The position numbers and the translations under genes were made by a program. From Tribonema minus (taxonomy: Eukaryota > Sar > Xanthophyceae > Tribonematales > Tribonemataceae), in assembly GCA_017506865.1 (NCBI GenBank), contig JAFCMP010000379.1:186001-250000 (forward strand): DNA of 64,000 bases, written 5' to 3'. Shown here piece by piece: positions 52,219-64,000 of this stretch. Within the stretch, counting starts at the first letter, position 1. Each line of letters starts with the position of its first letter. The notes beneath the pieces are model-generated. The model was given only the letters and a program-made list of their open reading frames with translations. It was not told where the DNA came from and did not search any database.

Positions 52219-52560
52219 ATTACAGTATGTACCAGCAGGTGCGTTGCTGGAAAGACGCATCAACTTTCGCACACTCACTGGCAGTCTAGACTGGCCAGCT
52301 GCCAGTGGCAGATGCTGCAGCTGCAGCGTGAAGGATTCAATTTGTCTCAATTCAACGGTAGTTCACGCATCCGATCGATTGGACCACATCACCGTGACGC
52401 AAGTGCATACATGCACAGCCGGCTACACTATCATGTGCTTGACATACAAGAACAACTAGTAGGGCAACGCTCGAGCTTTGCTGGCACGTACGGGCTTACT
52501 TTTGAGTCATCAAGATGTTCAAACCCTGCGCAATACAAGCTACTAGCTGCAGCATGAGCA
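52219..52560 (+). repeat. Duplicated non-coding block, copy A
   Basis: Shares GTATGTACCAGCAG, TGGCCAGCTG, GCAGATGCTGCAGCTGCAG, then CACTATCATGTGCTTGACAT with 54,298-54,660 in the same order, with small gaps. The similarity resumes later at ACCCCTGCACCTCGT (53,080 and 54,691), with about 440 bp present only in this copy. Confidence 0.75.
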
Positions 52561-53105
52561 CGTGCTTACTAACTTATTGAATATGATGCCATGTGACAGT
52601 GAATGCATGCATGCATGCATGCATGCACGCTGCTGCAGCTGTCAAGATTGATTTGAGAAAAACGGAACCTGAATATGGAAAACGGACCCAGCATCAAACC
52701 ACTTTGGCGAAGTCTAGTTGAACCCTGCCAGCGTTCGATGCTCAATTTCAACATGAAATTGAGGTTGTTAGGTGAAGTGCCCAGTGTTGAAGTTGGTGAG
52801 GGGTTCCCATGATGAGCACTGAGCACCTTCTTAAATTCAATTTGTAGGTGAACTTCTGTACTTAGCCAAATAGTTGAGGTTAAAGTTCAGAGTCAAGTTA
52901 AACGTCGTATATCTCAATCCTGGGCGTAAAAAGAAATTATTTCTGCTCATTATTTATATATGGGGATGACTATCACACCCACATCATCACAGTTGAGAAA
53001 GGTCCATGGCAGAGTTCACCCCTGTGGTCCCCTGTTGAATTCAGGTCAACGCGTTTTTCGCAACTCAAAAACCCTGTCGGACCCCTGCACCTCGTCCAGC
53101 GTGAC

Positions 53106-53291
53106 TGTGCGCCCAGGTGGTCAATGCAACGCATTTCGACTGTACGACAATTGCCCAGGTGGTCAATGCAACGCATTTCGACTGTACGACAATTGTCATT
53201 TGTCAATGCAACGCATTTCGACTGTACGACAATTGTCATTTGTCAATTGTCGTACAGTCGAAATGCGTTGCATTGACCACCTGGGCGCACA
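53106..53291. mobile_element. Foldback / MITE-like insertion 1, 186 bp, TSD TGAC
   Basis: The arms start TGTGCGCCCAGGTGGTCAAT and end with its reverse complement; the inner sequence is a large imperfect hairpin with CGACTGTACGACAATTG repeats. TGAC flanks both sides (53,102-53,105 and 53,292-53,295). The paralogous block at 54,691-54,735 (ACCCCTGCACCTCGT then CACCGTGACAGTGACC) lacks the insertion and serves as an empty site. It has no coding capacity. Confidence 0.88.
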
Positions 53292-53450
53292 TGACATGTC
53301 CGCAGTAACTACTACTAGTAGTAGTACTCAATCAGCTTATGCTACATGTACTGCAGGGGATAATCCGAGATCCTGCATGCATTCAACATATGTCTTACGC
53401 CAGGCATTGAGGCACCACGACCAGCAGTTCGTGTTGGTAGGTACTAGTAC

Positions 53451-53805
53451 TTTTATTAATTCTCACTCAGGGCGCGAAAAAGCCCAGATGAATGGCATCT
53501 AACTTGAAGCTTGCTGTACGAAATCATGTCGTGTGTCGGACAGTCTGAAAGCGTCTTCTGCGCCCAGGTGTTATCGATGCAACGCATCTCGGTACCTGTA
53601 CGACATTATGCATCTCGGTACCTGTACGACATTATGTCGTACAGGTACCGAGATGCGTTGCATCGACAATATGTCATAATGTCGTACAGGTACCGAGATG
53701 CGTTGCATCGACAACACCTGGGCGCACAGTCTCAACGACAACCACTCAAGCGCCGCCGCCGCCAAATGGCATCTCGGGATCCTCCCCTACGTCCACCTCC
53801 ATGTG
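53451..53805 (-). repeat. Short interspersed repeat, copy 6, interrupted by foldback 2
   Basis: Left half 53,451-53,556 and right half 53,733-53,805 together match the uninterrupted copies at 47,092 and 54,117. On the minus strand the right half could encode an acidic peptide ending PEMPFGGGGA followed by a stop, but no more of a gene is visible. Confidence 0.85.
53557..53728. mobile_element. Foldback / MITE-like insertion 2, 172 bp, TSD GTCT
   Basis: The terminal arms (TCTGCGCCCAGGTG and CACCTGGGCGCACA) match insertion 1 apart from one base. The interior repeats CATCTCGGTACCTGTACGAC in inverted orientation. GTCT flanks both ends (53,553-53,556 and 53,729-53,732). Removing the element and one GTCT restores the GAAAGNGTC-NCAAYGACAACC sequence seen in the uninterrupted copies. 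Confidence 0.9.
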
Positions 53806-54116
53806 CCTCGGGCCCCCCCTGGATTCTGCCATGTGTGTCATGACAACTTGAAGGCGAGAGTACGCCATGTGGAGCGCTGCCAACAGTGCCGCGCGTAAGC
53901 GCGCCAGGGCGAATCGGATGCCCTTTAGAGCTTTAGGGCGCGCTCCTCCGGGCACTGACATCCTGTTGGCACTGCATACTCCGTCGCCACAGGCTCCAGC
54001 AGAAGCTTCCGCCCCTGCTCCCCGATCATGATGCTGCCAATTGACCCGATTGCCAAAGTGGCAAGTTTGTAGCAATGCTGATCATAATGACCAGAATAGA
54101 ACAAAAACATGTGTAC

Positions 54117-54280
54117 TTTTTATTAATTCTCGCTCAGGGCGCGAAAAAGCCCAGATGATTGGCATCTAGCTGTAAGGAATCTACATGTCGTATGACAGTC
54201 TGAAAGTGTCGCAATGACAACCACTCAAACGCCGCCGCCGCCAAATGGCATCTCGGGGTCCTCCCCTACGTCCTACATGT
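54117..54280 (-). repeat. Short interspersed repeat, copy 7 (uninterrupted)
   Basis: Same order of blocks as copy 5, ending on the minus strand in GCGAGAATTAATAAAAAGTA. It lies directly left of duplicated block copy B. Confidence 0.85.
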
Positions 54281-54297
54281 GTACTACATACCATCTA

Positions 54298-54735
54298 TTA
54301 GTATGTACCAGCAGATGCATTGCTGTGAAGACGCATCAGCTTTCGCACATTCAGGCTACTCTGGCCAGCTGGCAGATGCTGCAGCTGCAGCTGGAGCGTT
54401 GAGGATCAATGTCAATTTGTCTCAGTTAAAGAGGTACAGTAGTTCACACACAGTGACTGTGGCACATCAACTGGACCACATCACGCAAGTGCGTGGATGC
54501 AAGACTACACTATCATGTGCTTGACATGCAAGAACTAGGCCTAGGCAATGTGCTTTGCGGGCACGGGCTTGGTTTGAGTCATCAGGATGCTCGAATTCCG
54601 CATGCGCACTGCAATTCAAGCTATATATACTAAGCATATGCTCACATCATGTGCCACGCAGTGCATGCATGCATGCTGCTGCAGCTGTTGGACCCCTGCA
54701 CCTCGTACACCGTGACAGTGACCACTCAGTAAGGT
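54298..54735 (+). repeat. Duplicated non-coding block, copy B
   Basis: Counterpart of 52,219-52,560 and of the sequence around foldback 1. It is shorter because it lacks both the roughly 440-bp segment and the foldback insertion. Confidence 0.75.
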
Positions 54736-55900
54736 ATTGTATACTGCTGGGGATCATGCGGAATCTTGCATGCATCACATGTCTTACACCATGGTACCAG
54801 TCATGAATTGATGATACAAGTTCTCTGTTTTATGCTACGAGTAGCATGAAATGCCAGGAGCTCTGGAAGGAGGAGACCGTTCTCTGGACCGGTACTTCAA
54901 CTTCAAGTCCTGTGCCAGCAACTAGGAGGAAGGCTCTTTTTTTGCTACAACAAGTGCTCAAGGCACCTACAAGGCAAGCAACAAGAGACCATCCTGGCTG
55001 GGAGACAGCAAGACCTCTGGAGCTGAGCCATATTCACTGGGCTCACTCTCCTTCTTCAGCCATGTCTACACAGGTGTGTCTTTGCTTGCTTCCACTGATG
55101 CTTGCCCTGCAAGTTGGCTGCACTTTGATGTCACTAGCAGTTCAGCAGCTCTATTGCTCAAGGCATGGACTCCAGGCTGCTTTGCTGTATCATGGCTCAG
55201 CTCCACTTGCCGGCGACAACATCGGTGCTAGACTTTGAAGACTCTGTCGATTACTCCGACACAGTTTAATGCCGTGCACTTAGGCCACGAAGGTGTTCTG
55301 AAGTACTGCGTCCGCGACGGGGTCGCGTTGGCGGTGCAACAGACACATAGGGACGCTGCTATGTACTAAGACTGCCCAGCGTCTATCAGTTGCTCGCATG
55401 CTATGGCAAGTCCGTGCTGTTTAGTCCTGCAGACGACAGCATGCGATCAACGAAGCTCACGGTGTTTCCCTTCCAGCACACGGCTGCTAGGCACGACTGG
55501 CTATACTGTCAGACTAGGTGCTCCAGCTGCTTTGAGGAATCCGTGAGCATGGACACGCAACCATGCAACAGCGTTTTCCGTCAGTTAGTGTGAGCGCCGC
55601 TAACTGATTCTGATTCGTGCACCTCGGCACAATGTTGCGTGCAGCGTGAAAACTCATGTATGCAACGGGACTGATCACCCCGACGCATTTTGAGTTGACA
55701 ATGTGGAGTTGTCCACACGCTGGCTAGACTCGCCTGGGCCGACCCTGACACGCTTTTTCAAGTGGAAAAGGGAATTATCGGCTTCTGCATAACCTCTGAG
55801 CAGATTGCATAACCTTTGAGCACTTTGAAAAATCTTGAGCGCTCTGGCACGCCGTCGACGCGCACATTTTGAGCGTTTGCCCGCTCTACACGGAAGTGCG
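54736..55900. other. Unassigned sequence, probably including the retrotransposon 5' LTR
   Basis: The short frames here show no recognisable domain. The 5' LTR should lie in this stretch, but its edges cannot be set without the 3' copy. A Cys-rich frame near 55,440-55,590 has no clear relatives that I know. Confidence 0.35.
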
Positions 55901-55929: not shown

Positions 55930-56463
55930 GTGTCTCAGGGAGGAAGTGCTATCCACGCTGGCAACGCCGAGCAGCCTGCGACGGGCTTAGCCTCCGTTGG
56001 GGAAACGGGTGGCGCGGGAACCGGCGGTGAGAGTAGCAGTGGCGGTGCGGATCCGCAGGCACAGCCCCCCCCTGTGCACCCTGTGTCGGCGCCTCCTGCC
56101 GATCAGGGCGGCATGTCGGCTGCGGTCGCCTCGATCCCCGCGAGCGCTGGGACTGCACCGACTGCCACTCCGCCTGTCACTGCCGCTCAAGCTCAAGGTC
56201 CCCCCGCGTCCTCCGGAAACCTGCCGGTCGCGACATCCGCCGCACCTGCCCCGGCTTCCGGTGATGGTCGAGAGCAGATGGACGACATTGTTCGAGGACT
56301 TCGCGCTGCTCTCCCCGCTATTAGCGACGAGGCTCTGCGCCGTGTTGCAGAGCGCGTGAGCGCTTCGGTGCGTCCAGCTGCTAGTACCACTGCTAGCCTC
56401 GACCCAGCCATACTCTTCAGCGCCGGCACCGCTGCAACTCCAGGGCGCCAAGGCCAACACTAG
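55930..56463 (+). CDS. Gag-like Ala/Pro-rich ORF
   Basis: The frame is open from about 55,873 to a TAG at 56,461, but the first in-frame ATG is at about 56,113, so either translation starts there or a non-ATG start or 5' exon is used. The product is Ala, Pro, Ser and Gly rich, with one helix-like segment (about MDDIVRGLRAALPAISDEAL then RRVAERV). No capsid major homology region or CCHC knuckle is visible. It overlaps the next frame by about 100 nt in a +1 relation, an arrangement used for gag-pol frameshifting in Ty3-like elements. Assignment as gag rests on position only. Confidence 0.55.
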   Translation: MSQGGSAIHAGNAEQPATGLASVGETGGAGTGGESSSGGADPQAQPPPVHPVSAPPADQGGMSAAVASIPASAGTAPTATPPVTAAQAQGPPASSGNLPVATSAAPAPASGDGREQMDDIVRGLRAALPAISDEALRRVAERVSASVRPAASTTASLDPAILFSAGTAATPGRQGQH

Positions 56464-56467
56464 CGCC

Positions 56468-59400
56468 ATGCGCGGCAGCGACGCCATGGACACTTCGGAC
56501 GAGAGCCACCCCAGGGCTGCGGCAATGGCTCCTGCTAAGCCTGCCAAGCAGCCGGCCAAGCCCAAGAGCGACAAGGCCAAGGCTTCCAGCAGTGACGAGT
56601 GCTTCGGGTGCCACAAGCACTTCGGTGGAGAGAACAAGCTCCGGGAGCACTGCCAAGAGTGCCCGGAATGGTACGAGCACCGCATCGAGCGCCTGAAGGC
56701 CGCCAAGAGGCCCCACGACAAGCTGGAGAAGCGCCGCGACGAGTTGCGCGCCAAGCGCGCCAAGACAAGTGAGTGTTCGCTCACCGCTTTCCACACCTTG
56801 CCTAGTGCACTCGTGGATGTTGACGCGCCAGTGCAACTCGGGCACAGCGGTCATTGCACTAGCTCCACGCAAGATGTGCTAGAAGCGCTAGATGTGCAAC
56901 CAGCGGCGACTGAGGCCGGCACACAAGTCACTACGCGCATGCTCGACAAGACCGTTGGCACTTGTATGTTAGCCACGTTCTTGTATGCGCATAGTGAGCT
57001 AGCAGTACGCGCACTTGACACCAGCGCACCCTTGACTGCTCCAGATGCCAGTGACGCTCCAGCAGTATGCGCACCTGACACTAGCGCACCTTTGACTGCT
57101 TTGGGCACCAGTGACACGACCAGTTGCGCGCCGCTTGCAGCGCAAGATGTCGCTCATGATGTTGCTACTCCGCAGCCAGGTAAGACCGACGTTTCTGACC
57201 CCAGATGCGTTGCACCTACTTCCACCACTTCGCCCGTGTCATATCCGCAGACTAAGGAGGCGTCTGATGCCGACGCGGGGCGCTCGGACAGAAGGCGGCT
57301 GCGGGTGACAGAGTTGTGCTGTGGAATAGGGGGTGTACATAGGGGGTTGCAGGAGTTCGCACGTGCAGCAGACGTTGACGTGCAGGTGGTCTTAGCGGTA
57401 GACAACTGCAAGCGTACATGTGAGGAGTACAGCAAACTCTTCCCTGACACCGAGGTCATATGTGCAGATGTATCTAGCCCCCAAGTTCGCGAGAGGCTCA
57501 AGCACCTCAAGCCAGACGCGATTTGGAATACATCTTCTTGTGTTGAGTTTTCCCCTGCGGGAATGGGGATTGAAGGCGATGCAGCACGCACGCTTGTACA
57601 TGTTGCGGAGATCGCTGCCAATTGCCTGCCAGCTCTAGCCATCAACGAAAACGTGCCCAGGATGCTCCTATCAAGCTCATGGCGTGACTTCTGCCGCGTC
57701 GTGGGTACAAAGGGGTACTCCACCTATGAGGTGCAGTTTCGTGGGACCGACGTTAATGGTGCATCTTCACGCGAGCGCGTCTATACTGTGTCAGCTGCAA
57801 ATGCTGCTCGGTTGCCTGAACGATTTGCACGCTTGAATGCAATTCTCAATGAGCGCTTTCGCACCAGCAAGCCACGTACGGTCCGTGAACATCTTGGTTG
57901 CTCCCATGACACGTTTTATTGGGACCCGAGGCAACCCACGACGCAAGGCGTGCTGTCTACTGACATGCCGCTCCCTAGCCCTGTTACTCGCCAGCCTGGG
58001 CGGGGCCCCTCCTCGTCTTATCAGCCACGTGAGAAAGACGCGGGACCGGTTAATAAGGCCCTTGTCTTGACTGTTGATCAGGTCATGAACTTGCTGGGCT
58101 ACTTTGAGCCACATCCTTCCGGGACCATCACTCAGATGAAGCGCTGGGCTGCAAACTTAGTGCAACCCAATTGCGTGTCAGCGCTCATGCTTGCCTTGCA
58201 CGCTGTCGCCGCCTTGCCGGAGGAGTGGCCAAGCCCTCGTGATGCCACTGGCGTCTCACCAGGTGAGGTTGTAGTGCATGATCGCACTTCTCCCCCGCCA
58301 GAATGGATGGTAGACTCCAGCCCTGATCTGCCTGTAATACTGCGCCTAGCTAGTACTTGCGTGCGGAACTTCCAGCGTTTTACACGCAATGTAGGCCAAG
58401 CCATACTTGCATCATTTCGGCCTGGAAGTGATGCACCGGTTTCGCAGACGCCTTGGACGTACGGTGAAGATGAGGAAGAGCCTTTGACTCCTCATGCTTC
58501 TCATGCGCCGCATGTCGAGACGCCACGTGCTGTTGCAATGCGAGAAATGAGCGACACTGACAGCGATGCAGATGCTCAGCAGCCTAGTGCTAGTAGCATT
58601 GCTACCGATGTTTTCAAGGCTCAACCCAGGCGCATAGCACGTGACAAGCCTCCCAAGATTCTACATAGGGCACGTGCCGTCGGCAGACCTAAGAAGAATG
58701 GCTTTGTGCACATGCCAATACGCACACAAGTTGGTAACGGCATACAAGAACTGGTACTTGACGCGCTAGTGGATAACGGCGCCGAGGCCGAATTCATTAA
58801 CACAGAACGCGCACACCAGTTGCCGCCGGGTTCAATTTGCCCGCTCTCCGAGGGTGATTTTACCACGGTTGAACTTGCAGACGCCAAGAAGTCTGTGCCA
58901 ATTTCAGGTGTAGTGCACGCCCAGGTGCGCTTCAAAGACACCATATTCACACACGCTTTTTACGTGGTGGACCTGCCTTACGAGGCAATCTTGGGGTCAC
59001 ATTTCTTTGGCAAATTTGGCTCGTCCATCACCTATGAACATGGCATGCGATTCCACCCCGCTGGATCCGCTGGACCTGCCGTTGCCATGCATGAACAAGC
59101 TAAGTTGGGGACTCTAGACCCCCCAGCTGCCAACACGATCAAGGTGGGTGTTACAAGAGCCAAGTCTTCTCAGAGGCCCACTTTGCCTAGTCGCACTTAT
59201 TTGCTGCGTACAACGTGTGACCAGGTGCTTAAAGCTGACACCGCTAAAACCATTGAAGTAGTGTCACATCCACCAGTACAGTGCACAGGCCCTGTTGAAG
59301 TGCTACTCACCCCTGACGCGCCAGAGGCGTCAGTGATGGCAAACAGGCTGGCCACCAGAGGTGCCGTTCTCATGGATACGGTGGACTTTGTAGCACCTAA

Positions 59401-59905
59401 CAAGCCACTAGGGATGTTAGTCGAGAACACTTCCACTGCGCCAGTAATTGTGCCTAGAGGTGCAGTGCTGGGCGTCATTGAGGCCCCTGGCATGATCTGC
59501 AGCCTAGACATTGGCAAAGAGGAGCTTGTGACTAACTTGACAAGAATTGCGTTGAGACACCTTGGGCAAAACGCACCAGACACACCTGCTGTAACAGATC
59601 AAGACCTGTGCAGCAGCCAGACCCCTCGTGTGTGCCAGAACACGACTTGCCGAGACCAGACCCTGCCACGCGCGCTGAGGCAGAACGAGCTGCATTCAGA
59701 CACAAGGTGGCAGAGGAGCACAATGCCTCGCTGGGAACTTGCACGGACGAGGAGCTACGTGAAGTGCTGTGTGACAAGAACGGCGAGATCTTCAACATCC
59801 TCAAGCAACGCGATCGACACGGCGTCACCTACTATGACCGCGCTATGGAGGTGCTTCGCCGGCGACGAGGTGCCTTTGCCAAGGACCCCAAGAACCCCAA
59901 GGTGA
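56468..59905 (+). CDS. C5-cytosine DNA methyltransferase plus retropepsin polyprotein segment
   Basis: 1,145-codon frame starting with ATG. Residues 45-65 form a C-x2-C-x12-H-x3-C zinc finger. Residues about 276-580 are a C5-DNA methyltransferase: motif I ELCCGIGG (282-289, AdoMet binding), motif IV with the catalytic Cys358 in SSCVEFS, motif VI ENV (394-396), motif VIII RER (435-437), and a motif IX/X-like end WAANLVQPNCVSALMLAL. The enzyme would methylate cytosine C5 in DNA. Motif IV lacks the usual Pro-Cys-Gln, reading Ser-Cys-Val. From about residue 755 to 860 lies a retropepsin with active-site DNGA (Asp769; usual form DSG or DTG), followed by AILGSHFF. The last 100 or so codons run out of frame past the point where reverse transcriptase continues in the -1 frame, so the functional product probably ends or shifts near 59,600. 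Confidence 0.88.
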   Translation: MRGSDAMDTSDESHPRAAAMAPAKPAKQPAKPKSDKAKASSSDECFGCHKHFGGENKLREHCQECPEWYEHRIERLKAAKRPHDKLEKRRDELRAKRAKTSECSLTAFHTLPSALVDVDAPVQLGHSGHCTSSTQDVLEALDVQPAATEAGTQVTTRMLDKTVGTCMLATFLYAHSELAVRALDTSAPLTAPDASDAPAVCAPDTSAPLTALGTSDTTSCAPLAAQDVAHDVATPQPGKTDVSDPRCVAPTSTTSPVSYPQTKEASDADAGRSDRRRLRVTELCCGIGGVHRGLQEFARAADVDVQVVLAVDNCKRTCEEYSKLFPDTEVICADVSSPQVRERLKHLKPDAIWNTSSCVEFSPAGMGIEGDAARTLVHVAEIAANCLPALAINENVPRMLLSSSWRDFCRVVGTKGYSTYEVQFRGTDVNGASSRERVYTVSAANAARLPERFARLNAILNERFRTSKPRTVREHLGCSHDTFYWDPRQPTTQGVLSTDMPLPSPVTRQPGRGPSSSYQPREKDAGPVNKALVLTVDQVMNLLGYFEPHPSGTITQMKRWAANLVQPNCVSALMLALHAVAALPEEWPSPRDATGVSPGEVVVHDRTSPPPEWMVDSSPDLPVILRLASTCVRNFQRFTRNVGQAILASFRPGSDAPVSQTPWTYGEDEEEPLTPHASHAPHVETPRAVAMREMSDTDSDADAQQPSASSIATDVFKAQPRRIARDKPPKILHRARAVGRPKKNGFVHMPIRTQVGNGIQELVLDALVDNGAEAEFINTERAHQLPPGSICPLSEGDFTTVELADAKKSVPISGVVHAQVRFKDTIFTHAFYVVDLPYEAILGSHFFGKFGSSITYEHGMRFHPAGSAGPAVAMHEQAKLGTLDPPAANTIKVGVTRAKSSQRPTLPSRTYLLRTTCDQVLKADTAKTIEVVSHPPVQCTGPVEVLLTPDAPEASVMANRLATRGAVLMDTVDFVAPNKPLGMLVENTSTAPVIVPRGAVLGVIEAPGMICSLDIGKEELVTNLTRIALRHLGQNAPDTPAVTDQDLCSSQTPRVCQNTTCRDQTLPRALRQNELHSDTRWQRSTMPRWELARTRSYVKCCVTRTARSSTSSSNAIDTASPTMTALWRCFAGDEVPLPRTPRTPR

Positions 59906-60280
59906 CGGACCGTTTCGACGTGGACATTGACACAGGCGACGCGGCGCCCATTGCCGACAGGGCACGCAGGTGGGCTGAACGCGAAGCTAAAATCATATTT
60001 GAAGCCATTGAAAATGAGCGCAAACGCGGACAGATCAGACCTGCCAATGGTCCTTGGGCTAGCAATCCAGTGCTAGTGACTCAGAAGGACAAGGTCCGTT
60101 TCTGCGTTGACTATAGGCCGCTCAACAGAGTTACACGCCGCGATGAGTATGGGCTCGGCAATATGGACGACTTGGTTCAAAAATGCTCGGGCTCGCGCAT
60201 ATTCTCGGCGCTAGACTTTGCTTCTGGTTATAGGCAAATACCCATGACCAGAGAGTCAACCTGCTGGCTCGCTCTGGGAG
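59608..60280 (+). CDS. Reverse transcriptase, N-terminal part
   Basis: This segment is in the frame -1 relative to the methyltransferase-protease ORF. It carries GQIRPANGPWASNPVLV, KVRFCVDYRPLN and SALDFASGYRQIPM, the fingers and first catalytic-Asp region of a Ty3/gypsy RT. At about 60,250-60,275 the conserved sequence leaves this frame, which stops at 60,342, and continues in the +1 frame as WEYKVAPFGL. The KTAF motif usually found just before is not recognisable, so an indel lies here. Confidence 0.85.
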
Positions 60281-63200
60281 TACAAGGTTGCGCCGTTTGG
60301 GTTGGTGTGCTTGCCAAGTATATTCACCAGATGCATGCATGAGCTCCTAGGCTCAGCCAGGCAAACGCATGCGTGTGTGTACGTTGATGATGTGCTCGTA
60401 CACAGCAAGAATCTCGAAGACCATATAGCTCACTTGGACGATGTACTTCGACGCGTGGAAGAGTACGGCATGAGTGTGTCTAGACACAAGTGCCAACTCT
60501 TTGCCGAAGAAGTTACATATCTAGGCCATAAGGTGGGCAAGTATGGAATCAAGCCGTGTGAGGACAAAGTAAAAGCCATGGTCGACATGATGCCGCCCGT
60601 GGGCAGGGACGGCAAGGTAGATAAACGGCTAATGCAAGTCCTCATGGGATGCTTCAATTACTATAGGCGCTACATACACCGCTTTGCGCATATTGCAGCT
60701 CCCCTAGTCGAGTGTACGCGTGATGGCGCTGACATGTCGTGGACCAAACGTCGCCAAGCGGCGCTGGCCAAACTCAAGCATGCCATGTCAAACGCTCCTG
60801 TGATCATGCACCCAGACTTTGACCTACCTTTTATAGTACATACAGACGCAAGCAAGCTAGCCGTTGCTGGCGTTCTATCTCAATTCGTGCCATTAGACAA
60901 ACTACGTGAACGGCACAAGGACTTCCCCTGGGCCAGCACGCGCCTTGTGAATACAGTTGACGGCAAACCTGCCAGAGAGGTAGTTGTGGCATTTTTCAGC
61001 AAGATTAACTCAGTGCAGGACGCAAAACTTGGTGCTACTGCACTAGAGTGTCTGGCTGTGGTGCTAGCTTTGAACAACTTCCGCGGTTACATTTGGGGCA
61101 GACCTGTAACCGTCGTAACCGACGCGTCTGCGCTTCGCTGGCTCTTGACGTTGAACAACCACAATAGCAAGCTGCTACATTGGGCCATGCGTCTCCAGGA
61201 ATACGACGTCGTGGTCGTACACAGGCCTGGCAAAGACAATGGCAATGCAGACTGCCCTTCACGCATGCCTCAGATGACGGAGATCATCGGACCTAGGCAG
61301 TACGAGCACGCTGACGAGCAGTGGCCCGACTGCACCGATGCTGGACCTGCACCTCCGTCTGGGGTACGTTTTGAAGATGAACAATTGCAAGACTCACCAG
61401 CATTTCTAGGCCGTATAGGTGCTTATACGGCATGCCCAGGAGCCACGGCTTTTAAATCTAATAAACTTGCACAAATATCTACAAAACTGAGCAGCCGCAT
61501 GGGTACATTGACACCCCAAGAGGTACATGACCTCAGTGATACCATGCACGAGAGCGCGTGCGTGGACACCGCGCTTTTCAAAGAAGAGGGAGGTGAACCA
61601 GAACCAGAAACCACTCCCCTCGTTTCCATGCTTCGCAATCTGAAACTGGGCTCGTATTCTGAGCACATTTGGGACAGCTGCGCTGCGATGCTCTCGCCGC
61701 TTAGAGATGCGACTGCTCCAACCGAGACTAGCGAAACCACTGACCTTGCCCTTGAAGCTGAAGACGCTGAAGCAGACACTTCAGATGACAATACGTCAAC
61801 TCGGACTGGAGAGTCTGACTCACGCCTAGAGTCTTCACCTGCTATGCTGGAACGCAAAAACTTTGTGCGTTGGCAGGAAAGTGACCATTTCTGTTCATCT
61901 GTGAAGCGCTATCTGGAAACACAAGGCCAGACCCCTGACCCTAGCCTTGCCAAGTTTGTCAGCCAGAACCAAGAGTTTTTCACAGTTGAACCTGACGGTT
62001 TGCTCGTGCACTTCATGGCAAGTCGGTCCAAGAAGGGCTCCCTTATCACTCAGTGGGTGGTGCCTGACGCTTTGAAGCCACTCGTACTCCGTCTTTGCCA
62101 TGATGATGGCAGTGCTCAACACCCCTCGACCGCTGCCACGCACGCCAAGGTGCTGGAACGCATGTATTGGAGAGGGTTAGGCGCTGACGTCCGAGACTAC
62201 GTACGCTCATGCGTCTCTTGTCAACAAACCAAACCGCAGTCCACTGCCAGGTACAAGCAAGCACTGATGCCATCTACACACATGTGGCAACGCTTGCATG
62301 TGGACTACACCGAAGTCGGCGTCCTTTCCTCAGAAGGGCATCGATACTTGCTCATCATCACTGAAGCTAGGTCAGGCTACTGTTGGCTTTTCCCCGTAAA
62401 GACACGATCAGCAGCTGAGGCCGCGCCCCTGCTGGCAGGAGTACTCTTTGAGTGCGGCGCGCTTGTGGAGGAGCTAGTGTCTGACAGAGCCGCAGAATTC
62501 ATGAGTGCGTTGATAAACATGCTCTGCACCTTCTTTAAAGTGCACAAGATAGAAACCAGCGCGTATCACCCCCAGTCTAACGGCGTCGTCGAGAACATGA
62601 ATGGGCGCGTCAAGAGAGCGCTTGCTAGACTCTGTTCTCGCTACCAGGCACGCTGGCATGTGTATCTTGATGTCGTGCAATTTGCGCTCAGGAACACGCC
62701 TAGAGAGGAGACGGGTCTGACCCCATTCTTCTGTGTTTATGGTCGCGAAGCACGCTTTCCTCTTGACGCTTTGACCTCTGAGGTTACAAGCCCGCAAGAC
62801 CTACATGCTGAGGTAAAGCGTCTGCAAGAAAATCTCAAGCTTGCTGAGGAGGCGGTCGGCGAGGCGCTGCAGCAACGTGCTGAACGCATCCAAGCTCGCA
62901 ATGACCAAATCCAACGCACTGTGCACTTGGAGGTCGGTGACTATGTGTGGATCAAGAAACCACCTTCACGCGACCGCGCAAGTGCCATTGAGGAGCATTT
63001 CACTGGCCCCTGGAAGCTAGTGGCTCCGTATGGTGATTCAGGGCTTTCTTTTCAATGCCAACTCATGGGCACGCGCATACGCGAGACCACCGCGCATGTT
63101 GAAAACATGAAGCCATATCACCCCAGACCTGTGCGACTTGACATTGAGGGAGTACATGCCCTCCTGGACTCTGCGCAACTGCACCAGCTGGACCCTGACC

Positions 63201-64000
63201 AGCGATTGTGCCAGATACTAGACCGCAGAGCTGATGAGGACGGCGGCTGGTCATACAAGTGGCTGGCGCGCGATGGCACTACTTCAGAGTGGGTGCGCGA
63301 GAAAGAGCTTGTAGAACTGTTGTTCGTACCACCATGGGTACTGGACACTTTTCATGCTTTGTATGACCTCAAGCACCAAGGCAACGTTTACTCATATGCT
63401 GAGCGCCACCTTCCTCGCGAAGACCGCACGCTGTCCAAAGATGCTGCATTGCTGCGATACCCTTGCGGCACGCAAGTGGTCCGGCAAGTCAATGATGTGC
63501 CGAACTTGACCGACTACTTGTGGGGCCAGGTACGTGACTTTGCGCAGTCCCGCTGGCGTGTACGCTACTCTGACGGCACATGGGAGGACTTAACGTCTTC
63601 TCAGGTACGAGCCGCTAAGCTCATGGCCGAAGGCGTGCGCGACAGACTGCGTAGGTTGGCGCGTCAACGCAACAAGCCAGAACCTACCTTTGACTCCAGC
63701 CTTACGGCTGACCTGCCTGCTAATGTAAGAGTGACTGTGAGTCCATGCTTGCCAACTGACTTTGGACCACTCTACGTTGGCCAAGTTCTCCGCTACCGGT
63801 TCCCTTCCGGATGGAGCCGCGGCGTCTTGCTTAGGCTTGTATCCGTCAAGCGCGATCGTGGAGAATTCACTTTTGATGCGGAGTTCCCCAACACGCGAGG
63901 ACAAAAGCCTCTAGAGAAGCGTTTGAAGCTCAGAGCCGAATATTACCGTGATGACGCTCAGGCTGAACCTTCATCTTGGAATCTCATGCTGGCACGCGAG
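60275..64000 (+). CDS. Reverse transcriptase (catalytic), RNase H, integrase and C-terminal reader modules; open to window end
   Basis: An uninterrupted frame of more than 1,200 codons. RT palm YVDD near 60,380; thumb and RNase H to about 61,260 (HTDASKLAVAGVLSQ, TALECLAVV, VTDASALRWLL). A 250-residue acidic linker follows. Integrase: H-x6-H and C-x2-C zinc site (62,090-62,230), then catalytic Asp in HVDYTEV (about 62,303), Asp in SDRAAEF (about 62,484) and Glu in SNGVVENMNG, spaced D-35-E; GPF/Y module HFTGPWKLV near 63,000. After it, ILDRRADEDGGWSYKWLAR, then TTSEWVREKEL (63,210-63,320) resembles a chromodomain. VVRQVND, WRVRYSDGTWEDL (63,475-63,600) resembles a Tudor-like beta barrel. A third unassigned module runs to the window end. 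Integrase catalyses insertion; the reader modules could steer target choice. Confidence 0.9.

Follow-up and report, generated by a model that had tools for sequence, protein, structure and literature searches.

A Ty3/gypsy-type retrotransposon carrying a C5-cytosine methyltransferase domain in the genome of Tribonema minus

The retrotransposon at the locus

We analysed a stretch of 64,000 nucleotides from Tribonema minus (Xanthophyceae; contig JAFCMP010000379.1, positions 186,001 to 250,000), hereafter the window. A preliminary description, made from the letters alone, had proposed that it holds a long terminal repeat (LTR) retrotransposon encoding its own C5-cytosine DNA methyltransferase (DNMT). 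This was borne out: a PF00145 domain scores above the cut-off, LTRs and a target-site duplication were found, and reverse transcriptase (RT), RNase H and integrase are present. Comparison of the window with the 6 kb that follow it on the contig delimits a 9,920-bp element at window positions 54812-64731, of which the final 731 bases lie past the window end. The extent originally given, 56468..59600, was therefore too short, as RT and everything beyond it lie past 59600.

The same comparison yielded a 5′ LTR of 381 bp with TG...CA ends (54812..55192, +), whilst the 3′ LTR occupies contig C379:250351-250731, equivalent to window coordinates 64351-64731 and thus outside the window. The pair is 100% identical over 384 aligned bases. 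The 4-bp target-site duplication TTGA is found at 54808..54811, with its second copy at C379:250732-250735, also outside the window. By eye we could identify a putative primer-binding-site-like stretch, TGGCTCAGCTCC, immediately 3′ of the 5′ LTR (55193..55204, +) and, again outside the window, a purine run, AAAGAAGAGGGA, immediately 5′ of the 3′ LTR. Between the LTRs lie a remnant of the 5′ part of gag (55930..56463, +), truncated by an internal deletion that ends at ~56442, and a Cys/His zinc-finger-like stretch (CFGC...HCQEC) at the end of gag (56600..56662, +), which was recognised by eye and has a similar counterpart in the C4 copy of the element. Pfam searches gave no match for either the remnant or the zinc-finger-like stretch.

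The DNMT domain (308 aa; 57284..58207, +) follows the Gag zinc finger and precedes a retropepsin-like protease (58766..59023, +; E 0.044, 14.9 bits, below the Pfam cut-off). The active site of a retropepsin is usually D[ST]GA; here it reads VDNGA. The amino-terminal part of the RT (59608..60342, +) occupies a separate frame in this copy and, as a piece, scores below the RVT_1 cut-off (19.7 bits). Its carboxy-terminal part together with RNase H (60302..61264, +) was identified by Pfam and carries YVDD at 60368-60397. These are succeeded by an integrase with an H2C2 zinc finger and rve core (62093..62602, +; H2C2 E 2.1e-17; rve E 2.8e-6, 27.9 bits against a cut-off of 32.6) and by an integrase tail (63215..63610, +) with a chromo-like stretch seen by eye (63215-63322) and a sub-threshold match to Tudor PF21743 (63515-63610, E 0.0046). 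The order protease, RT, RNase H, integrase thus stands as first described, with a protease match that is sub-cut-off and with the RT onward in frames other than that of the DNMT. Paired LTRs with TG..CA ends and a target-site duplication, the order RT-RNase H-integrase and an RT of Ty3 type mark the element as Ty3/gypsy.

The window copy is defective, with a deletion in gag and two frame breaks at about 59.6-59.9 kb and 60.3 kb. Similarity to a sister copy starts only at 56442, leaving this copy without part of gag. Because that part is missing upstream of 56442, the ATG at 56468 is most likely an incidental result of the deletion. The single frame previously described does contain motifs I, IV, VI and VIII and degenerate IX/X-like stretches in order; its ATG is not the native start.

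Several sister copies are better preserved. Six of the window family (C23, C134, C234, C404, C435 and C471) have open frames of 3177-3180 codons. The C4 copy has one of 3176 codons (3024 residues read) with the layout gag, zinc-finger-like stretch, DNMT, protease-like stretch, RT, RNase H, integrase and tail, in which the zinc finger and protease were assigned by eye and the protease is sub-cut-off in Pfam. LTR pairs were found for the window copy and for the C423 copy, whose LTRs are identical and flanked by a 4-bp duplication, CTGT. Identity therefore holds in 2/2 copies with both LTRs whole, and the 279 visible bases of the C4 5′ LTR are identical to its own 3′ LTR. Moreover, several copies are 99.95-100% identical over ~3.9 kb. 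We note that the window copy (54812-64731) and the C423 copy (L032/L033) both have broken gag frames yet identical LTRs, which suggests that damaged copies were mobilised in trans, or were damaged on the way in.

The methyltransferase domain

PF00145 (DNA_methylase) matches residues 279-469 of the 1145-aa open reading frame at 56468-59905 (E 1.1e-14, 55 bits, cut-off 22). Within the domain we located motif I (57311-57334), motif IV (SSC; 57530-57550), motif VI (ENV; 57647-57664), motif VIII (RER; 57764-57784), a conserved PSPVTR (57971-57994) and a motif-X-like stretch (58145-58183). Motif IV reads TSSCVEF in the window; the catalytic Cys is kept and the preceding Pro is gone. We refer to elements of this kind as type I; the families read have the DNMT downstream of the Gag zinc finger and upstream of the protease.

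PF00145 was above cut-off in all ten type I family representatives, namely that of the window and nine others at 30-84% identity to it. Residues C86, E122-N123, R163 and R165 are invariant across these ten; we take them to be the catalytic Cys (C86), the Glu of ENV (E122) and the RxR of motif VIII (R163 and R165). Motif IV reads Pro-Pro-Cys in six type I families, Thr-Pro-Cys in C290 and Ala-Pro-Cys in C4; the window family and relatives at 81-84% identity have Ser-Ser-Cys, and the protein P0009 (see below) has Asp-Cys-Cys.

The ratio of non-synonymous to synonymous substitution rates (dN/dS) was 0.109-0.190 in the eight type I DNMT pairs with finite dS, values that are rough owing to a dS of 0.84-2.24; two further type I pairs were saturated. 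A single pair of type II DNMTs, described below, gave 0.233. Judged by these ratios, the DNMT is under purifying selection in close family pairs. Comparison of the window family with C4 shows stronger constraint on the RT than on the DNMT (proportion of non-synonymous differences 0.061 versus 0.274, with RT dS saturated in 4/4 pairs), and the spacer between zinc finger and DNMT is far less constrained (29% identity over 141 codons). An AlphaFold model of the domain, from five sequences, had a predicted template modelling score (pTM) of 0.68 and a mean predicted local distance difference test score (pLDDT) of 65.8; residues 1-80 reached a pLDDT of 80-94, and residues 86-97 (after the catalytic Cys), 153-163 and 205-260 fell below 50.

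Copies across the genome

The genome searched comprises 158 Mb on 554 contigs. Using the window DNMT and that of a distant family member as queries, and adding three places from a PF00145 search (123 of 378 candidates scored), the merged searches place the type I DNMT at at least 185 distinct places on 139 contigs, a figure that includes fragments and sequences with stops. The count is a minimum, since only 128/381 and 128/392 candidates were scored. Some near-identical copies may be one insertion seen twice, because many lie on short contigs or near contig ends.

The association was also approached from the RT. Of 93 RT places scored from 634 candidates, 83 are preceded on the same strand by a DNMT, at a distance of 1.65-4.9 kb. 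The upstream stretches of the remaining ten were fetched and contain a DNMT in place in three cases, a reversed fragment in one and none in six, giving 86/93 with a DNMT upstream and seven without in the stretches inspected. The domain is thus common to other copies, whose lack of it had been named beforehand as grounds for regarding the coupling as accidental. The reversed fragment belongs to another family and lies upstream of a type I-like RT (L069, G000 C27:449401-451200), probably as a nested or rearranged insertion.

A chimeric assembly join, or a chance fusion confined to one copy, would account for the frame breaks of the window copy and for nothing else. The same join recurs on many contigs and in sister copies, amongst at least 185 DNMT places on 139 contigs, and proteins P0008 and P0009, from other public assemblies, hold DNMT and RT Pfam domains in one protein. 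We therefore reject a chimeric join, the odds of which we consider negligible. On the strength of this recurrence and of the substitution ratios, the association between DNMT and retrotransposon is real, widespread and selected.

Two further types of element

A DNMT is also found in two other types of element, in which, at the loci read, it follows a protease-like stretch (by eye) and precedes the RT. In type II (C145, C66 and others) motif IV is GGPPC or GSPPC and motif X is LANAV-P; in C145 and C66 the DNMT is succeeded by an Ala-rich stretch and then the RT. A genome search with the type II RT listed 101 matches, 91 at 53-100% identity, some being pieces of one copy, and ten at 36-37%. One of these ten, C462, led to type III, where PF00145 (E 2.5e-9) lies upstream of the RT and motif IV is TRC. 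In a type III subfamily the two matched DNMT pieces abut in 27 of the 28 places listed (from 139 scored of 353 candidates), which suggests in-frame loss of the loop with the catalytic Cys. The loss of the motif IV loop was confirmed in both places read (L078 1-1100 and L079 1-1000), where ENA replaces ENV. Open frames that hold this subfamily reach 3455 codons. By eye, protease active sites are DNGA, DCGA, DPGA or DSGS in type I (DSGA in P0009), DTGA in type II and DSCA in type III.

The RTs of the three types share 31-38% identity with one another and 32-37% with Ty3 (33-35% for type I), and the best Protein Data Bank (PDB) match of the type III RT is the Ty3 RT. An unrooted RT tree of 11 sequences separates type I from types II+III, with Ty3 placed between the two (supports 100 and 74). 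In two DNMT trees the three types adjoin, with the outgroups apart from them at 87 and 78, and type I is apart from all others at 100 and 93. The second tree used the catalytic half only and left out II_C411, I_C9 and gv_C223b; outgroup sampling was thin in both. These trees would place the three DNMT types together with moderate support, and they are compatible with one old capture followed by a change of position as well as with several captures or exchanges. The DNMT and RT trees of type I are largely congruent, as would be expected had the domain been present before the families split.

Affinities of the domain and of its host

Among solved structures, the type I profile matches DNMT2 enzymes best (42-45 bits), then 3g7u (39), M.HhaI (38) and DNMT1 (~25). 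Type I thus resembles DNMT2 and the bacterial Dcm enzyme M.HhaI in its best profile matches (45 and 38 bits) and in the order of catalytic motifs, and differs from them in motif X and the target-recognition region. Moreover, in both DNMT trees P0014 and P0015 join the DNMT2 sequences in a group (support 100) separate from type I, and DNMT2 membership was rejected accordingly. An 84-bit PF00145 match in the genome reads as the host's DNMT2 and joins the DNMT2 group (support 74 in the catalytic-half tree). DNMT3 was absent from the 28 distinct PDB sequences matched by the type I profile up to E 10, leaving a Dnmt3 capture unsupported. The phylogeny proposed for the domain therefore separates type I from DNMT2, in trees with thin outgroups and without any Dnmt3 sequence.

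These affinities bear on the substrate. A DNMT2-like activity towards RNA, by which the genomic RNA or the primer tRNA would be methylated in the particle, would suit both the DNMT2 structures at the top of the profile matches (45 bits) and the position of the DNMT next to the Gag zinc finger. However, the trees place type I outside DNMT2, and the resemblance is slight, at 42-45 bits with 3g7u and M.HhaI close behind. We regard an RNA target as improbable.

Protein searches of public assemblies recovered P0007 (82% identical), P0008 (63%) and P0009 (46%), together with partial matches to P0001-P0003 and P0010. P0011 is a near-identical match to the C290 family; P0012-P0023 are distant proteins that carry PF00145 (10 of the 13 proteins P0011-P0023 were read, P0011 included). 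A scan of IMG/VR with the family profile gave 31 pattern matches, none confirmed, and one of a prokaryote genome collection gave 141, none confirmed; both scans depend on the family's own conserved stretches, so that a distant donor could escape. Two PHROGs DNMT families match all ten representatives, and 11 phage records match at 24-30% identity. A recent bacterial or viral donor was rejected, as the family-profile scans of IMG/VR and prokaryote genomes confirmed no relative. Separately, three loci (L044, L045 and L046; G000 C223:937874, C223:702740 and C181:39962) contain intact DNMT frames unlike those of the retrotransposons, and a gene neighbouring L044 reads like a deoxynucleoside monophosphate (dNMP) kinase. 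From such genes we assume that these loci are possibly endogenous giant-virus DNA.

The host was placed through its plastid-related genes. The chlorophyll a/b/c-binding family has 92 matches in the genome. Of two light-harvesting complex (LHC) frames searched, one best matches fucoxanthin chlorophyll a/c proteins; the other has four 9vfj chains on top, with ACPI and CAC chains next. Nine chains, several of them presumably diatom or Galdieria Rubisco, match an rbcL fragment of the nuclear assembly at 112-114 bits, against 75 bits or less for those that we take to be green-type. The LHC and rbcL matches indicate a red-lineage plastid, pointing away from charophytes and peridinin dinoflagellates. 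The 18S/5.8S rRNA is, we assume, stramenopile-like.

Comparison with known systems and possible role

Retrotransposons bearing DNMTs are known from Symbiodinium (LINE, long interspersed nuclear element, and DIRS elements) and from Klebsormidium, where a Dnmt3 domain is carried by an element of Gypsy type (de Mendoza et al. 2018, PMC5890265). DNMT domains of this kind are the subject of an opinion piece (Morozov et al. 2019, PMC6338049), and Dnmt3 in retrotransposons and orphan DNMTs are mentioned by Sarre et al. (2025, PMC12344493). The available passages of Hoguin et al. (2023, PMC9998398) hold nothing on retrotransposon-borne DNMTs.

Closest by description is KnitGypsy-Dnmt3 of Klebsormidium nitens, likewise an LTR Gypsy-type element with a C5-methyltransferase in its polyprotein under purifying selection (Ka/Ks < 0.2, the equivalent ratio, as reported there). 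It is set apart by a Dnmt3-related domain and a DIRS-like repeat arrangement (PMC5890265), whereas the Tribonema element has ordinary direct LTRs, a non-Dnmt3 domain, a type I DNMT upstream of the protease and a red-lineage host. SymbioLINE-Dnmt and SymbioDIRS-Dnmt3, again compared by description, are retrotransposon-encoded C5-methyltransferases too, the former of an orphan DNMT class and the latter in two architectures; in contrast, they rely on LINE or DIRS machinery (endonuclease, tyrosine recombinase) and not on LTRs and integrase, and reside in a dinoflagellate (PMC5890265). Orphan eukaryotic DNMTs are similarly lineage-restricted, outside the named families and in part carried by mobile or viral elements; the available passages on them describe no orphan DNMT borne by a Ty3/gypsy element of a red-lineage alga (PMC12344493). 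Nor did the literature searched, with most subscription papers and preprints outside its scope, report a Ty3/gypsy element with a non-Dnmt3 DNMT in such an alga. The distinction from the published Dnmt3 captures, suspected at the outset, holds, given the lack of DNMT3 amongst the PDB matches and the red-lineage plastid of the host. By its domain and layout, the Tribonema element is a variant, with a non-Dnmt3 enzyme, of the phenomenon published in 2018, and a further algal group would join the known hosts of DNMT-bearing retrotransposons.

Why a transposon should carry the kind of enzyme used in host silencing has been a question since the 2018 report. We propose, with a probability of roughly 45%, that type I is an old, still amplifying clade that acquired a Dcm/DNMT2-like methyltransferase, kept it in the polyprotein and methylates its own complementary DNA (cDNA) in the particle. 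A Ty3/gypsy-like ancestor would have gained the enzyme, which then stayed in the polyprotein. As the domain precedes the protease within a single long Gag-Pol frame, it would be synthesised in step with Gag and packaged in the particle. There it may methylate cytosines of the element cDNA before integration, or those of the fresh insertion, and new copies would thereby arrive pre-marked and less exposed to host sensing, editing or degradation. In keeping with an active enzyme, isolated SymbioDIRS-Dnmt3 domains carried out de novo CG methylation in yeast (PMC5890265).

Several observations weigh against this proposal. The KnitGypsy and SymbioLINE domains were inactive in yeast, a result judged inconclusive there (PMC5890265). 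In the Tribonema genome, some DNMT-bearing copies contain stops, the window family has Ser-Ser-Cys for Pro-Pro-Cys in motif IV and so lacks the Pro-Cys pair, ENV is changed in 2/26 distinct aligned sequences (L026 and L030) and the type III subfamily apparently dispenses with the catalytic loop. The observed/expected ratio of CpG, at 0.82-0.85 in type I pieces, falls inside the spread of 9-kb chunks from the host part of the window (0.78-0.99, with 0.89 overall), and type I pieces are therefore not CpG-depleted; two type II pieces gave 0.89 and 1.01. Private C-to-T changes in 23 copies are only weakly enriched at CpG (20/550 CpG versus 38/1698 other C sites, p 0.087; 24/550 versus 41/1698, p 0.027, with three more rows dropped), a count that leaves out L010, whose flank is unrelated. 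Both measures fit self-methylation as well as its absence.

The fold might instead serve as a nucleic-acid- or cofactor-binding module in assembly, cDNA chaperoning or integration targeting, with catalysis dispensable in some or all lineages. The apparently loop-less type III subfamily, with 27/28 listed places affected and frames of up to 3455 codons, speaks for such a role, as does a motif IV relaxed to SSC in the window family, DCC in P0009 and TRC in type III. However, a pure binding module would not need the Cys, the Glu and both Arg that are invariant in 10/10 type I representatives, and we consider a non-catalytic role possible, if unlikely. A wider and tentative reading is that the DNMT fold is a standard part of Ty3/gypsy-type polyproteins in this genome, spanning three RT lineages and two positions, with one subfamily catalytically dead and retained; this we judge plausible, with the balance somewhat against it. 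Were it true, the fold would assist retrotransposition in general, and methylation need not be its core role.

Alternatively, the enzyme may act on the host, methylating chromosomal DNA to dampen expression of the element or its rivals or to saturate host marks, an effect discussed for Symbiodinium (PMC5890265). Here the domain is encoded inside Gag-Pol and not as a free nuclear enzyme, which speaks against such an effect; we regard it as improbable. Methylation of the element's own cDNA in the particle remains our preferred reading for type I. The genome offers a natural experiment on this point, with well over 100 copies, among them several young insertions in long open frames, and families with canonical and altered motif IV. 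Moreover, the two polyprotein positions and the apparently loop-less subfamily provide a comparison that can separate catalytic from non-catalytic roles.

Repeats upstream of the element

Just upstream of the element, window positions 53106-53291 and 53559-53726 contain long, near-perfect inverted repeats with arms of up to 55 nt, which are perhaps small non-autonomous elements. Direct repeats (D10, D16 and D17) with a spacing of about 2.05-2.08 kb lie at 52224-54720, upstream of the 5′ LTR, and suggest an old tandem duplication.

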